Shown here piece by piece: positions 43,347-48,661 of a DNA stretch of 64,000 nt (the stretch's first letter is position 1; every line of letters begins with the position of its first letter). This DNA is from Thermococcus onnurineus NA1 (GTDB lineage: Archaea; Methanobacteriota_B; Thermococci; Thermococcales; Thermococcaceae). Both the position numbers and the translations under genes were made by a program. The stretch covers positions 186,001 to 250,000 of the forward strand of contig NC_011529.1 in assembly GCF_000018365.1 (NCBI RefSeq). Direction: 5' to 3'. The notes under the pieces are model-generated. The model was not told the DNA's origin, made no database searches, and saw only the letters and a list, made by a program, of their open reading frames with translations.

Positions 43347-44045
43347 TCAGCACCCCCTAAAGCTGTTGACATCGACTATGCCTCTGCCGATGATGGCGTG
43401 ATACTTCTCATTAGCGCATCTCATGCAGAGAGGCTCCTCGTTGATGTAAACGATCCTCGTGGACATGACCAGCTCGCCACAGCGAGAGCAGCGGATGCTC
43501 TCAACTATTGGCGCCTGTTCGATTGGCGGAACCTTGACGCGCTCGATTTTGAACTCTTCTTTTGGCAGGTAAAGCATGGTCTTAGCAATCGATTCCCAGA
43601 GCCCCCAGAGGCGCTTCCGCTCTTCAGGGGTTCCTTTCCGTTCCTTAACGACCTTATTGAAGAGCTCGGTTGTGCCCGAAGGGTAGTACTTCCTCAGCTT
43701 CTCAGCATCGGTGTAGACCCTAACGCCCTCCCATGTGGAGCGTTTGACGAGAGTCAGGGCTGTCTTGCCGAGATCGATGTATATCATGGAGTTATTTCCC
43801 AGCGTGCAGCCTGTAGCTACCTGGACGCCGTCAGTAAAGCAGCTGTTGACCTCGACTATGGCAAGAATGGACTCATCGACGCTTCCAGAATAGTCAAGCC
43901 TTCCGACACCTAGTTCCTCCATTGCTATCAGTGAAGCCCTTATTCCGAGGGCTAGGTATGGACAAACATGGCCATGGAACTCGCGGGCGTATTCAAGGAT
44001 TTTCTCCGCGTCCCTCTCCTCCACGAGACGGTTGAGCGCGAGCAT
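43347..44045 (-). CDS. FmdE-domain protein with C-terminal zinc ribbon
   Basis: 232 residues. The N-terminal FmdE domain contains [16 protein letters not shown] and [20 protein letters not shown], whose Cys and His may bind a metal. A linker follows, then a C-terminal zinc ribbon [10 protein letters not shown]...[13 protein letters not shown]. FmdE was named from methanogen formylmethanofuran dehydrogenase operons, but this organism makes no methane, so another metal-handling role is likely. First gene of the ABC transporter operon; a SurR-like site lies upstream between it and the NifX-like gene. Confidence 0.85.
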
Positions 44046-44100: not shown

Positions 44101-44117
44101 GTTATCAACCCTTGGTT
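44101..44117 (+). promoter_or_regulatory. SurR consensus site between the FmdE operon and the NifX-like gene
   Basis: GTT-ATC-AAC-CCTTG-GTT is a perfect match to GTT-N3-AAC-N5-GTT. It ends 8 bases before the TATA-like TTTTTAAT (44126-44133) of the NifX-like gene. It is about 15-20 bases upstream of a TATA-like ATTAAAAG on the minus strand for FmdE, so one site could serve both operons. Confidence 0.6.
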
Positions 44118-44164: not shown

Positions 44165-44539
44165 ATGAGGATAGTCGTGCCGATAAAGGACAATAGCGGC
44201 CTTGAGAGCGAGGTTTGCGAGCACTTCGGAAGGGCCAGATACTTCGTTTTCATCGACGTCGAGGATGGGAAAGTTAAAGGATCGGAGGTTATAGAGGTAC
44301 CCTTTAAGGAGCATGAACCTGGAGACCTACCCGCCTTTATTAAGGAGCACGGGGGAGAAGTCGTCCTTGCCTACGGCATGGGGAGGAGGGCCATCGCCTA
44401 CTTCAACACCATGGGAATAGAGGCCATCACAGGCGCAAGCGGAAGGGTGAAAGACCTCGTGGAGGCCTTACTGAAGGGAGCACTGAAGGTGGACCCCGAG
44501 TGGAGGAGCAAAGGCGATTTCGGACGGCACGAGTTCTGA
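44165..44539 (+). CDS. NifX/NifB-like iron-molybdenum cofactor-binding domain protein
   Basis: 124-residue dinitrogenase iron-molybdenum cofactor family protein: MRIVVPIKDNSGLESEVCEHFG, split in family blocks, then ARYFVFIDVEDGKV and VVLAYGMGRRAIAYFNTMGIE. These RNase H-like domains bind Fe-S or Mo clusters; there are no nitrogenase genes here, so a metal-cluster storage or regulatory role is more likely. ATG follows GGTGGTACC. The promoter has a SurR-like site upstream and an ATGA-GTTT-TCAT element (44136-44147) downstream of its TATA. Confidence 0.88.
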   Translation: MRIVVPIKDNSGLESEVCEHFGRARYFVFIDVEDGKVKGSEVIEVPFKEHEPGDLPAFIKEHGGEVVLAYGMGRRAIAYFNTMGIEAITGASGRVKDLVEALLKGALKVDPEWRSKGDFGRHEF

Positions 44540-44561
44540 ACTTTCAGTTGCGGTAAGGTTT

Positions 44562-44585
44562 ATATATGAAATTTTTTTCATATAT
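44562..44585. promoter_or_regulatory. Perfect 10-bp inverted repeat in the TDT transporter promoter
   Basis: ATATATGAAA (44562-44571), TTTT loop, TTTCATATAT (44576-44585). It overlaps the 3' part of the TATA element (TTTATATA, 44559-44566) and covers the predicted transcription start, so a dimeric repressor bound here would block initiation. As RNA it could also form a short hairpin. Confidence 0.55.
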
Positions 44586-44597
44586 TTTGGTGGTGAT

Positions 44598-45623
44598 ATG
44601 AAGCTGAACGTGAAGGACTTCGCCCCAAGCTGGTTCGCGAGCGTCATGGGCACAGGAGCTTTGGTACTGGTGAGCAAAGCTTACTCCTCAAAGCTCACAA
44701 TCCTTGAAAGTTTCGCTGAGTTCCTCGTTTATCTCAACACCGTCCTCTTCTTCGTTCTGCTGATTCCGTGGGTTCTCAGATGGATCAAATACCGAGAGAA
44801 CGCTCTGGCGGATCTACACCATCCAGTCCTCGGCAACTTCTACGGAACGATAGCCATAGCGATGCTCGTGCTCTCGGCCGATTACCTCACGGTCTTCGGG
44901 AATACAAGTGTGGCGTGGGCCTTCTGGCTCGCCGGGACACCGCTGACGATATTCTTCGCCCTGATGATTCCATACCTTGTTTTCACGAGCGAAGGAGTAG
45001 ATACCAAGGCCATAACACCCGCCTGGTTCATTCCGCCGGTGGGGCTGATAGTCATTCCGATAAGCGGGGCGAAGCTCATGACACTCGCTTCTGGAACTGC
45101 GAGAGAGGTTATGGCCTTCATCAACTACTTCGCCTGGGGCGCTGGGTTCTTCCTGTATTTAGCACTCTTTGCCATCGTGATGTACAGACTCATAACCCAC
45201 GAGCCGATGCCCTGCGGCATAGCGCCTTCGATATGGATAAACCTCGGTCCGATAGGGGCTGGAACCTCAACCCTCTACGCCCTCGTTAAAGCTTCCGATT
45301 TCATAACCGTCAAGGAACCGCTCTTAGCTTTCGGCTTGTTCTTCTGGGGCTTCGGCGTCTGGTGGTTCGTCATGGCAGTCCTGCTGACCATCCACTACAT
45401 CAGAAAGCTCAACCTGCCATACAGCCTGGCTTGGTGGGCCTTTATATTCCCCTTTGGAGCCTACGTAAGTGCCACATACAACGTTGGGACGACGTTCGGA
45501 ATAGGTTCAATCGTTAACTTTGGCTTCGCCCTGTACTGGCTGCTCCTAGCGATGTGGCTGGTGACGGGAGTTAAAACTATCGTGCACGTACTTTCCGGCC
45601 CCAAAACAAGAGGCAAGGTATGA
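44598..45623 (+). CDS. TDT-family (TehA/SLAC1/Mae1-type) transporter
   Basis: 341-residue membrane protein with about ten helices. It begins with the family pattern FAPSWFASVMGTGALVLV and includes HPVLGNFYGTIAIAML, PAWFIPPVGLIVIPISG, IWINLGPIGAGTS and WWAFIFPFGAYVSAT. Members move monovalent anions, malate, sulfite or tellurite. Substrate unknown here. RBS GGTGGTGAT precedes ATG 44598. The promoter carries a perfect inverted repeat. Confidence 0.88.
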   Translation: MKLNVKDFAPSWFASVMGTGALVLVSKAYSSKLTILESFAEFLVYLNTVLFFVLLIPWVLRWIKYRENALADLHHPVLGNFYGTIAIAMLVLSADYLTVFGNTSVAWAFWLAGTPLTIFFALMIPYLVFTSEGVDTKAITPAWFIPPVGLIVIPISGAKLMTLASGTAREVMAFINYFAWGAGFFLYLALFAIVMYRLITHEPMPCGIAPSIWINLGPIGAGTSTLYALVKASDFITVKEPLLAFGLFFWGFGVWWFVMAVLLTIHYIRKLNLPYSLAWWAFIFPFGAYVSATYNVGTTFGIGSIVNFGFALYWLLLAMWLVTGVKTIVHVLSGPKTRGKV

Positions 45624-45648: not shown

Positions 45649-45960
45649 ATGGAGAACCAAAGTGGCGCTCTCACTTTCCCTGTTTCACCCTTTTCGCCGA
45701 GGTGCTCAGAGGCTCCACTCCTTCTGGAAGCCGTCAATCCATTGGCGTTCCTTTTCCTCTGGGCATACTACGGTGATGGCGTTCTCCTCGTGAGAGAGGT
45801 CTGGGATGAGGTGGGAGGGTCACCTCAAGTTTATGCTCCTCGGGGCTGTTTACGGTACAGGTGAGCCAAGGCCATCCTTGGGATAGTGACCTTTGCATAC
45901 CTTCTCAAGAAGAGAAAGGAAAATGGCCCAAGCACAGCCCGAAGGCAAGGAAAGCGCTTA
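45649..45960 (+). pseudogene. Decayed gene for a small membrane protein (tentative)
   Basis: Between the TDT and CDF genes there are 334 bases without an intact gene. Three frames in turn give protein-like pieces: NPLAFLFLWAYYGDGVLLVR from an ATG at 45649, then WEGHLKFMLLGAVYGTG in a second frame near 45810-45870, then AKAILGIVTFAYLLKKRKE in a third near 45870-45920. Together they look like two membrane helices and a Lys-rich tail interrupted by frameshifts and stops. I do not recognise the parent family. Confidence 0.4.
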
Positions 45961-46845
45961 ACTCTTGCATACCACATCGTCGTCATCACAGCGGTTCACC
46001 TCGAGTTGCACTGTGACGTGGGTTACTCCATACTTCTCCAGAATCTTTTCGACATCGTCAATGATACGCTGAGCCTCGCTTAGGGACATGTCGTTCACAT
46101 CAACGTGGCACTCAAAGTGGGTTTCATTTTCTCCAATGCGCCATGCGTGGAAGTGGTGAGCATTTTTAACGCCGGGAATTGACTCGAGTTCTGCCTTTAT
46201 TGCATCGAAGTCGAGCTCGGGCGATGCCTCCATGAGAACATCAACGCTTTCTTTCAGTATATCGTAGCCCTCGCGGAGGATGTAGAGGGAAATGAACACA
46301 GTGACAAGTGGGTCTATCCAGACGAGGTCGTAGTATCTTATGGCCAGACCGCCGGCCACCACAGCCACCGAAGACAGCGTGTCGCTCACAAGATGAAGGT
46401 AAGCGGAGCGAACGTTGATGCTCTCGTGGGCGTGCTCGTGGAGGAGGAGAACGGAGAGAAGGTTAGCCAGAAGTCCAATAACCGCCACCACAAGCATGAG
46501 CCCTGTGTCTATTGGATTGGGATTCCTGAAGCGCTTATAGGCCTCCACGAGCAGGAAGAGGGCAACGCCGACGAGGACGGCAGAGTTGACAAAGGCGACG
46601 AGTATCTCGGCCCTCTTATAGCCGAAAGTGTACTTTTCGTTCTTTTCACGCTCACCGATTCTTATCGCTATGTAGCTCGCCAGAAGGCTCATAGTGTCGC
46701 TGAAGTTGTGGAGCGAGTCGCTCAGGAGAGCTAAACTTCCGGAAAGAATTCCACCTATGACCTCGGCTATCGTAATGACAAAGTTCAGGATTATAGAGAA
46801 GACCATACGGGATTTCATGGCCCTGTGGGAGTGTTTGTGTCCCAT
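45958..46845 (-). CDS. Cation diffusion facilitator (Zn2+/Co2+/Ni2+ exporter)
   Basis: 295 residues with six membrane helices and a cytosolic C-terminal domain. SLALLSDSLHNFSDT and YLHLVSDTLSSVAV carry the HxxxD pairs forming the transport metal site; a His-rich loop LLHEHAHE lies between them. The C-terminal domain has AHHFHAWRIGENETHFECHVDV and ends CDDDDVVC, a possible extra metal clamp. It exports excess Zn, Co or Ni. Divergent from hypA across a region containing a SurR site. Confidence 0.9.
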   Translation of the reverse strand: MGHKHSHRAMKSRMVFSIILNFVITIAEVIGGILSGSLALLSDSLHNFSDTMSLLASYIAIRIGEREKNEKYTFGYKRAEILVAFVNSAVLVGVALFLLVEAYKRFRNPNPIDTGLMLVVAVIGLLANLLSVLLLHEHAHESINVRSAYLHLVSDTLSSVAVVAGGLAIRYYDLVWIDPLVTVFISLYILREGYDILKESVDVLMEASPELDFDAIKAELESIPGVKNAHHFHAWRIGENETHFECHVDVNDMSLSEAQRIIDDVEKILEKYGVTHVTVQLEVNRCDDDDVVCKS

Positions 46846-46934: not shown

Positions 46935-46951
46935 AACATAGGGTTAAAAAC
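46935..46951 (-). promoter_or_regulatory. SurR consensus site upstream of hypA
   Basis: On the minus strand GTT-TTT-AAC-CCTAT-GTT matches GTT-N3-AAC-N5-GTT perfectly. It ends about 8 bases before the TATA-like TTTTTAAG (about 46960-46967) of hypA. It is part of a 7- to 8-bp palindrome GGGTTAA/TTAACCC at 46941-46958. SurR is a redox-sensitive regulator in Pyrococcus and Thermococcus that activates hydrogenase genes when sulfur is absent. Confidence 0.65.
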
Positions 46952-46996
46952 TTAACCCTTTTTAAGGATAGCACTGAAAAAGTTGGTGGTGATACA

Positions 46997-47416
46997 ATGC
47001 ACGAATGGGCTCTGGCTGATGGAATAGTTAGAACCGCCCTCGACTACGCTCAAAGAGAAGGTGCAAAAAAGCTTCTGGCAATTCAAGTAGTCCTCGGAGA
47101 GCTCCAGGACGTTAACGCCGAGATAGTCGAGTTTGCCATGAAGGAGCTTCTCAAGGGCACCATCGGGGAGGGTGCGGAGATAGAGTTCATCGAGGAGGAG
47201 GCAGTTTTCAAGTGTCGCGACTGCGGTCACGAGTGGAAGCTCAAGGAAGTGAAGGGAAGCTTCGATGAGCGCATCAAGGAGGACATCCACTTCATCCCCG
47301 AGGTAGTTCACGCCTTCTTGGCATGTCCAAAGTGTGGCAGCAGGGACTTCGAAGTCGTACAGGGTAGGGGAGTCTACATAAGCGGGATAAAAATCGAGAA
47401 GGAGGGGGAGGCATGA
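46997..47416 (+). CDS. hypA: Hydrogenase nickel incorporation protein HypA
   Basis: 139 residues. Nickel is bound by the N-terminal MHEWALADGI (His2), and the zinc domain is formed by FKCRDCGHEW near 73 and LACPKCGSRDF near 110. The zinc loop insertion between them is typical of Thermococcus HypA. It delivers Ni to the [NiFe] large subunit with HypB. RBS GGTGGTGAT precedes the ATG, and the gene overlaps hypB by 4 bases. A SurR consensus site lies upstream of its TATA box. Confidence 0.97.
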   Translation: MHEWALADGIVRTALDYAQREGAKKLLAIQVVLGELQDVNAEIVEFAMKELLKGTIGEGAEIEFIEEEAVFKCRDCGHEWKLKEVKGSFDERIKEDIHFIPEVVHAFLACPKCGSRDFEVVQGRGVYISGIKIEKEGEA

Positions 47417-48159
47417 TAGCCATAGACCCTCGCGTCAAGGGCATAGAGGCTCGCCTTGAAAATGTGAAGCGCATCATTCCCGTCGTCAGCGGCAAGGGCG
47501 GCGTTGGAAAGTCGCTGGTTTCAACAACGCTCGCCCTTGTTCTGGCGGAGAAGGGCTATAAGGTCGGCCTCCTTGACCTCGACTTCCACGGCGCGAGCGA
47601 CCACGTAATCCTCGGCTTCGAGCCGGAGGACTTCCCTGAGGAGGACAGAGGCGTCGTCCCGCCGACGGTTCACGGAATAAAGTTCATGAGCATCGTCTAT
47701 TACTCGGAGGATAAACCAACACCCATGAGGGGCATGGAGATAAGCGATGCGCTCATTGAGCTCCTCACTATAACCCGCTGGGACGAGCTGGACTACCTCG
47801 TCATCGACATGCCTCCCGGTCTCGGTGATCAGTTCCTAGATGTCCTTCGCTTCCTTAAGAGGGGTGAGTTCCTGGTTGTGGCAACACCTTCAAAGCTCTC
47901 CCTCAACATCGTCAGGAAGCTTCTTACCCTCCTGAAGGAGAGGGACTACAAGATTCTCGGTATCGTCGAGAACATGAAACTTCATTCGGAGCAACGAAAC
48001 AACGAGAAGGGCATAGAGGCTCTTGCAGAGGAGTTCGACGTGCCCTATCTGGCTGGTATCCCGCTCTACGACGACCTCGAGGAGAAGATAGGAAAGCCCG
48101 AGGAGCTCCTCAGGACGGAGTTTGCAGAGAGGATAAGGGAAGTTGCGGGGAAGCTCTGA
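47413..48159 (+). CDS. hypB: HypB, ATPase of the Mrp/MinD type
   Basis: 248-residue P-loop ATPase with a deviant Walker A VSGKGGVGKSLVS near residue 26, DLDFHGASDH (switch) and VIDMPPGLGDQ. This is the atypical HypB described from Thermococcus kodakarensis, which is an Mrp/MinD-like ATPase rather than the GTPase HypB of bacteria. It forms a complex with HypA and regulates nickel delivery by ATP binding. It overlaps hypA by 4 bases and is followed by the maturation protease. Confidence 0.93.
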   Translation: MIAIDPRVKGIEARLENVKRIIPVVSGKGGVGKSLVSTTLALVLAEKGYKVGLLDLDFHGASDHVILGFEPEDFPEEDRGVVPPTVHGIKFMSIVYYSEDKPTPMRGMEISDALIELLTITRWDELDYLVIDMPPGLGDQFLDVLRFLKRGEFLVVATPSKLSLNIVRKLLTLLKERDYKILGIVENMKLHSEQRNNEKGIEALAEEFDVPYLAGIPLYDDLEEKIGKPEELLRTEFAERIREVAGKL

Positions 48160-48184: not shown

Positions 48185-48661
48185 ATGGAGCTTGAAGAAC
48201 TCTTTCAGAACGCTAAACGTATCGTTATCTGCGGCATAGGGAACGAACTTAGGGGGGACGACGCCTTTGGTGTCCTTGTGGCGGAGATGCTGGCGGAGCT
48301 CGTCAAAAGCCCGAACGTCTTAGTCATCAACTGCGGTGAAGTGCCTGAGAGCTACACCGGAAAGATAGTGGATTTCAAGCCTGATCTGATTATCTTCGTC
48401 GATGCCGTTGACTTCGGCGGGGAGCACGGAGAGCTCGTAGTCGCCGATCCAGAGGGAACACTCGGTGAGGCGGTTTCGACACACAGTCTGCCCCTAAAAT
48501 TCTTAGTCCAGTACCTCAAAACGAAGGTAAACGCAAAGTTCGTCCTCATAGGCTGCCAGCCACGCTCGCTCGGCCTTTTCGAGGAGCCAAGTGGGGTGAT
48601 AAGAGAGAGGGCTGAGATGCTGGCACAGGCGATTGCAGATTCGCTTAATGGGGGCGAATGA
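48185..48661 (+). CDS. hycI: Hydrogenase maturation protease HycI-type
   Basis: 158-residue endopeptidase. GIGNELRGDDAFGVLVAEML holds the nickel-binding Glu and Asp of the family; VDAVDFGGE gives the second Asp and THSLPLKFLVQYL gives the His. It removes the C-terminal extension of the [NiFe] large subunit after nickel insertion; the HycE-like subunit in this window carries such an extension. ATG 48185 follows GGGGTGAAACT; the frame opens at 48143 inside hypB. The operon is hypA-hypB-hycI. Confidence 0.94.
   Translation: MELEELFQNAKRIVICGIGNELRGDDAFGVLVAEMLAELVKSPNVLVINCGEVPESYTGKIVDFKPDLIIFVDAVDFGGEHGELVVADPEGTLGEAVSTHSLPLKFLVQYLKTKVNAKFVLIGCQPRSLGLFEEPSGVIRERAEMLAQAIADSLNGGE

Follow-up and report, generated by a model that had tools for sequence, protein, structure and literature searches.

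A conserved putative SurR operator in front of the hydrogenase maturation genes hypA-hypB-hycI in Thermococcus onnurineus NA1

Presentation of the hypothesis

The gene hypA is a further, conserved putative target of the well-known regulator SurR, judging from a sequence footprint that extends across the order Thermococcales. In T. onnurineus NA1 the site lies directly in front of the hypA promoter, within a stretch of 64,000 nucleotides (the window, to which positions refer unless the genome is named). The strain is recognisable from a cysteine desulfurase encoded a few kb downstream of the start of hypF, which over 399 residues is identical to PDB 5b7s, the T. onnurineus NA1 enzyme according to PMC5426080. 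In our opinion it is probably a functional SurR operator that activates a hypA-hypB-hycI operon. The two parts of this prediction may be judged separately: that SurR controls the operon we predict with high confidence, and, if it does, there is a good case that the control is activation. The literature is cited below by PMC number.

The genes behind the promoter are the following.

46997-47416, plus strand: hypA, nickel metallochaperone (NF003008, 224.7 bits against a cut-off of 125; PF01155)
47413-48159, plus strand: hypB, archaeal Mrp/MinD type (PF10609; PDB 3vx3/5aun-5auq, E 2.9e-131, which we take to be the T. kodakarensis HypB structures)
48185-48661, plus strand: hycI, hydrogenase maturation protease (TIGR00072, 113.3 bits against a cut-off of 47.45; with TIGR00142 it scores 113.7, slightly below the cut-off of 119.1)

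These genes lie on one strand, hypA and hypB overlapping by 4 nt and hypB and hycI being separated by 25 nt, and mobA on the opposite strand bounds the unit; the spacing suggests an operon. In all 89 Thermococcales loci hypB directly follows hypA on its 3' side, and hycI was found at 65 of them; some loci end too soon to include it.

The regulator itself is present. The surR gene occupies positions 292441-293148 of the genome, adjoining pdo, and its product has the redox CxxC motif (CTEC, residues 24-27), a PF0095-like_C domain and a match to PDB 2qlz ('Transcription Factor PF0095', E 2.2e-91). It was found in 92 of 94 Thermococcales genomes and in 74 of the 74 that are of good quality. The SurR motif, the redox switch and the restriction of SurR to this order are described in PMC12162507 and in section 15 of PMC8595942. 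SurR sites upstream of BRE/TATA activate, as at mbh (PMC12401011, PMC10025317), and a site that overlaps BRE/TATA, as at mbs, represses (PMC12401011). The redox switch, the motif and the position rule in our model for hypA are all taken from these four papers. Open papers on SurR targets, so far as their titles, abstracts and excerpts go, do not name hypA, which may nevertheless be listed already in the founding SurR work.

The site and the promoter of hypA

46935-46951, minus strand: long SurR-type site GTTTTTAACCCTATGTT (from the sequence and its conservation in hypA promoters)
46943-46951, either strand: core GTTAAAAAC (GTT-N3-AAC), the promoter-proximal part of the site
46952-46958, plus strand: probable BRE (TTAACCC), from its sequence and position upstream of TATA
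46959-46966, plus strand: TATA box TTTTTAAG
46985-46989, plus strand: probable transcription start, from the TATA position, giving a leader of about 8-12 nt
46985-46993, plus strand: Shine-Dalgarno sequence GGTGGTGAT
46940-46959: inverted repeat AGGGTTAA (46940-46947) / TTAACCCT (46952-46959), incidental

The plus-strand letters at 46935-46951 are AACATAGGGTTAAAAAC, and their reverse complement reads GTT-TTT-AAC-CCTAT-GTT. The full long form GTT-N3-AAC-N5-GTT is thus indeed there on the minus strand, as an earlier note on this DNA had claimed. That note had put the site about 8 bp from the TATA box; it is just before TATA, at a measured distance of 7 nt. The site stands upstream of BRE and TATA without overlapping either, as in the activating class, and its core is self-complementary in the defining bases. 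For the rest of the promoter we relied on PMC5316973, which gives the spacing used to place the BRE and, for this strain, a TATA position of -30 to -20 and the Shine-Dalgarno motif GGDGRD, used here for GGTGGTGAT. The GGGTTAA/TTAACCC palindrome that the earlier note saw around the site exists, but as a regulatory element it was rejected: GGGTTAAN4TTAACCC occurs in only one of the 89 hypA promoters, that of T. onnurineus itself, and is incidental.

Conservation of the site

Conservation in orthologous promoters, on which the earlier claim depended, is where the site fares best. We looked for hypA in all 94 Thermococcales genomes; 90 gave a match and 89 were usable (G061, with HypA in two fragments, was left out, and no HypA was found in G010, G060, G081 and G083). 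In the same place and orientation as in T. onnurineus, that is, on the minus strand and starting between -74 and -58, the long site is exact in 41 of the 89 promoters and has at most one mismatch in 69. Anywhere within 200 bp upstream of hypA, the exact long site occurs in 42, a site with at most one mismatch in 72 and GTT-N3-AAC in 73. The core lies at -70 to -48 in 67 promoters and is missing from the other 22, so that the site must have been lost or weakened in some lineages.

A TATA box of the TTTWTAAR type (score at least 7 of 8) is found in 88 of the 89 promoters. When these 88 are aligned on TATA alone, blind to the motif and leaving out the one promoter without TATA, the most conserved columns upstream of BRE are AAC at -24 to -22, GTT at -16 to -14 and AAC at -10 to -8. 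These are the nine SurR positions with their N5 and N3 spacers, and beyond -26 conservation is at background level. Where a core lies no more than 40 nt from TATA (65 promoters), the gap between the two is exactly 7 nt in 63. With one genome kept per cluster of 90%-identical HypA (26 clusters, 25 with TATA), mean information over the 25 representatives is 1.02 bits in the nine SurR columns, 0.22 in the spacers and 0.16 farther upstream. At most one mismatch is seen in 15 of the 26 representatives (mean of 1000 shuffling rounds 0.07, maximum 2), and no mismatch in 11 (mean 0.004, maximum 1).

The footprint does not extend beyond the order in the loci that we could compare. Among named contigs we examined 15 of 61 loci, 5 from Thermococcales and 10 from elsewhere: a site with at most one mismatch is present at hypA in four of the former, and in none of the latter 10 did we find either the core or such a site.

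Is the match above chance?

The earlier note had asked whether the motif is commoner than chance allows, and it is. Where 0.27 exact long sites would be expected, the window has 3, a number that none of 100 dinucleotide shuffles reached; the genome (1,847,607 bases) has 34, and the reversed pattern occurs in it 13 times. We rejected the reversed pattern as a clean null, however, because several of its matches lie in repeated intergenic sequence of the TTTGATCAAA/TTTGCAAAG type. This inflates the control, and the single-genome counts are therefore moderate evidence only. The control pattern incidentally led us to this repeated sequence, with arms TTTGATCAAA and TTTGCAAAGCAAAGTTTG-like, at genome positions G000:C1:193241, 1385549 and 1804447, among others. 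We also dropped the intergenic bias of the sites as specific evidence. Only 8 of the 34 exact sites lie inside ATG-initiated ORFs of at least 120 aa, against 83.5% of the 17-mers of the window, but with 1 of 13 the reversed control is equally intergenic (Fisher p 0.41). The decisive evidence is the conservation upstream of hypA in 89 genomes, where 35,406 bp (400 bp per genome) hold 45 exact long sites and none of either of two control patterns.

The suggestion that the hypA site would rank with the mbh sites came out mixed. In a leave-one-out matrix it does lie between the two mbh sites, but in the middle of the range, at rank 19 of 34, and the ranking is itself weak: the genes at the 13 training sites were mostly labelled from peptide sequence.

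Sites at other promoters

We verified surR, pdo and hypF with Pfam; the labels nsr, SHII, mbh, mbs, nfn, frhA and fdh2 come from peptide sequence and are presumptive. The distance from the end of the long site to TATA is 7 nt at hypA and hypF, 10 at surR, and 9 at frhA, at the gene for a TDT/SLAC1 transporter and at osmC. The nsr site overlaps TATA at the end of the box, pdo has a core that overlaps it, and at mbs a core comes after it. The activating placement proposed for hypA is supported by this comparison, as its layout matches that of surR, hypF and frhA, differs from that of nsr, pdo and mbs, and fits the position rule of PMC12401011 and PMC10025317.

For hypF we sampled 50 of the 94 genomes (the 30 best-scoring and 20 picked from other genera). 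All 50 have the exact long site within 200 bp upstream; on the plus strand, at -65 to -67, 49 of them match exactly and the remaining one has one mismatch. For hypC, the first gene of hypC-hypD, no GTT-N3-AAC was found in the 1.5 kb upstream. Hence two of the three maturation units carry sites, and the claim that hydrogenase maturation as such falls under the SurR switch stands in part: HypA/B, HycI and HypF are behind predicted sites, HypC/D not visibly so. HypE would also come under the switch if it is cotranscribed. In passing, PF01924 of hypD is split between two overlapping frames, 251898-252218 and 252176-252958 (genome, G000:C1:251898-252958), an apparent frameshift in the T. onnurineus genome.

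Several other sites deserve mention in their own right. The TDT/SLAC1 transporter gene (44598-45623) has an exact long site at 44533-44549 on the plus strand, 9 nt before TATA. Relatives of this gene were matched in 66 of the 94 genomes, and of 30 loci scanned 16 have an exact site upstream; the gene of a TDT-family anion transporter thus seems to be another conserved target of SurR. TDT promoters also have, right after TATA and near the probable start, an ATGAAATTTTTTTCAT-like inverted repeat (here about 44566-44583) common to close relatives. Another exact long site, 44101-44117 on the plus strand, lies between an FmdE-like gene (43347-44045, minus strand) and a Nitro_FeMo-Co gene (44165-44539, plus strand). 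The latter was matched in 70 genomes, and of 30 loci scanned only 3 have an exact site; most of the others have an TGTGCATATGCACA-like palindrome right before TATA, which suggests the site of a different regulator. Elsewhere in the genome there is an exact long site upstream of an OsmC-like gene (G000:C1:1680865-1680881), and an ABC-type binding-protein gene is preceded by an overlapping double exact site (1752677-1752701), both genes being labelled by eye.

Alternative explanations

Could an AT-rich intergenic region have produced the match by chance? That the genome has 34 exact sites against 13 reversed ones implies that some single matches are chance. For hypA, conservation far above the shuffles and the 45 sites against none for each control leave this a negligible probability, and the TATA-anchored footprint refutes it. 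We give just as little credence to the idea that the target is the divergent gene for cation efflux (CDF, 45958-46845), which shares the intergenic region and has the site 106 nt upstream of its start codon. CDF is the divergent neighbour of hypA in only 14 of the 89 genomes, and the site is kept regardless, at a fixed distance from the hypA TATA; therefore the site belongs to hypA, and we rejected CDF as its target. The genome presumably encodes further HTH regulators, and one may object that our assignment to SurR is by consensus, so that another ArsR-type winged-helix regulator with an overlapping preference could use the site. We regard this as very improbable, since all nine motif positions and both spacings are conserved at hypA, the same motif occurs at surR and hypF, and it is missing from 10 of 10 hypA promoters outside Thermococcales.

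The more serious alternative, though in our opinion still an unlikely one, is that SurR does bind at hypA but represses or fine-tunes it: a core that abuts BRE could hinder TFB, and hypA would then rise with sulfur. At hypA, indeed, 7 nt separate the core from TATA and the core adjoins BRE, while at hypF, surR and frhA it is the third GTT that is nearest to TATA, with the core farther away than at hypA. On the other hand, at the repressed promoters of this genome (nsr, pdo, mbs) the core overlaps TATA or comes after it. Expression data are available on both sides. The TON numbers of PMC4463584 (hypB and hycI TON_0262-0263, hypF 0286, surR 0318) agree with the gene order of the genome, by which TON_0262 should be hypB at 47413-48159 and TON_0263 hycI. 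In the T. onnurineus proteome of that paper, TON_0262 is lower with sulfur, the ratio being 0.53 to formate and 0.47 to starch (p 0.00 each) and 0.78 to CO (p 0.07). HycI was detected on formate only in the sulfur-formate comparison, and HypF falls to 0.26, 0.41 and 0.18 with sulfur relative to CO, formate and starch, respectively. The same paper counts maturation genes among the most down-regulated in the sulfur response of P. furiosus. The decrease of HypB on sulfur relative to formate or starch fits activation. Against this, RNA-seq of T. onnurineus has the transcripts of the Hyg4-I cluster, of Mbh and of Sulf-I/II lower without sulfur (PMC5316973). The comparison there is of CO or formate minimal medium with a rich sulfur medium, so that media are confounded and mbh itself goes in the 'wrong' direction; even so, the result runs contrary to activation of hypA. 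HypF of Palaeococcus pacificus, moreover, is up 10.8-fold with sulfur (PMC6981617).

Implications of the hypothesis

If SurR activates hypA, as we infer, events would proceed as follows. Without elemental sulfur, reduced SurR would bind the GTT-N3-AAC core right behind the BRE, with AAC-N5 as its upstream half-contact, and would aid the loading of TFB/TBP at the TATA box at 46959. Nickel insertion by HypA/HypB and large-subunit processing by HycI would thus increase in step with the synthesis of hydrogenases. Once sulfur is present, SurR would be oxidised at its CxxC and would leave, and maturation would drop together with the hydrogenases.

In this way a known redox switch would extend from the synthesis of hydrogenases to their assembly, with an order-wide footprint in its support. 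In T. kodakarensis, overproduction of Mbh is accompanied by an accumulation of MbhL precursor, and the reason may be that there is more to process than the Hyp proteins can handle (PMC4549637); hence control of Hyp levels bears on hydrogen production.

The pair hypA and hypF is a natural test of how orientation and spacing affect activation by an archaeal regulator. The hypA sites in the conserved place are reverse and the TATA-proximal hypF sites forward, and the core centre lies about 12 bp from TATA at hypA, about 20 bp at hypF and 22-23 bp at surR, frhA and TDT; the difference between hypA and hypF is about one helical turn. It is tempting to speculate that one regulator works here with two activator layouts, forward and near-invariant at hypF, reversed, shifted by one turn and evolutionarily loose at hypA. 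SurR would then meet the initiation complex from the same face of the DNA, and its control of cyanide-ligand synthesis by HypF and of nickel insertion and processing by HypA/B and HycI would differ in strength or in sulfur threshold. We offer this tentatively and rather doubt it; the functional meaning of the difference in orientation is a guess.

Comparison with known SurR promoters

With the SurR-activated hydrogenase promoters (mbh, SH, frh) that of hypA has in common a long motif directly upstream of BRE/TATA. It differs in that the genes encode maturation factors and in that the site is reversed, with the core nearest to TATA (41 exact cases in the conserved place). The hypF promoter resembles it more closely: it too serves a maturation gene and has an exact long site right upstream of TATA, although there the site is forward and an exact one is present throughout the sample, whereas at hypA it is reverse and some members of the order have lost or changed it. 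The SurR-repressed promoters nsr, pdo and mbs have the same motif, but, unlike at hypA, the site or its core overlaps TATA or follows it.
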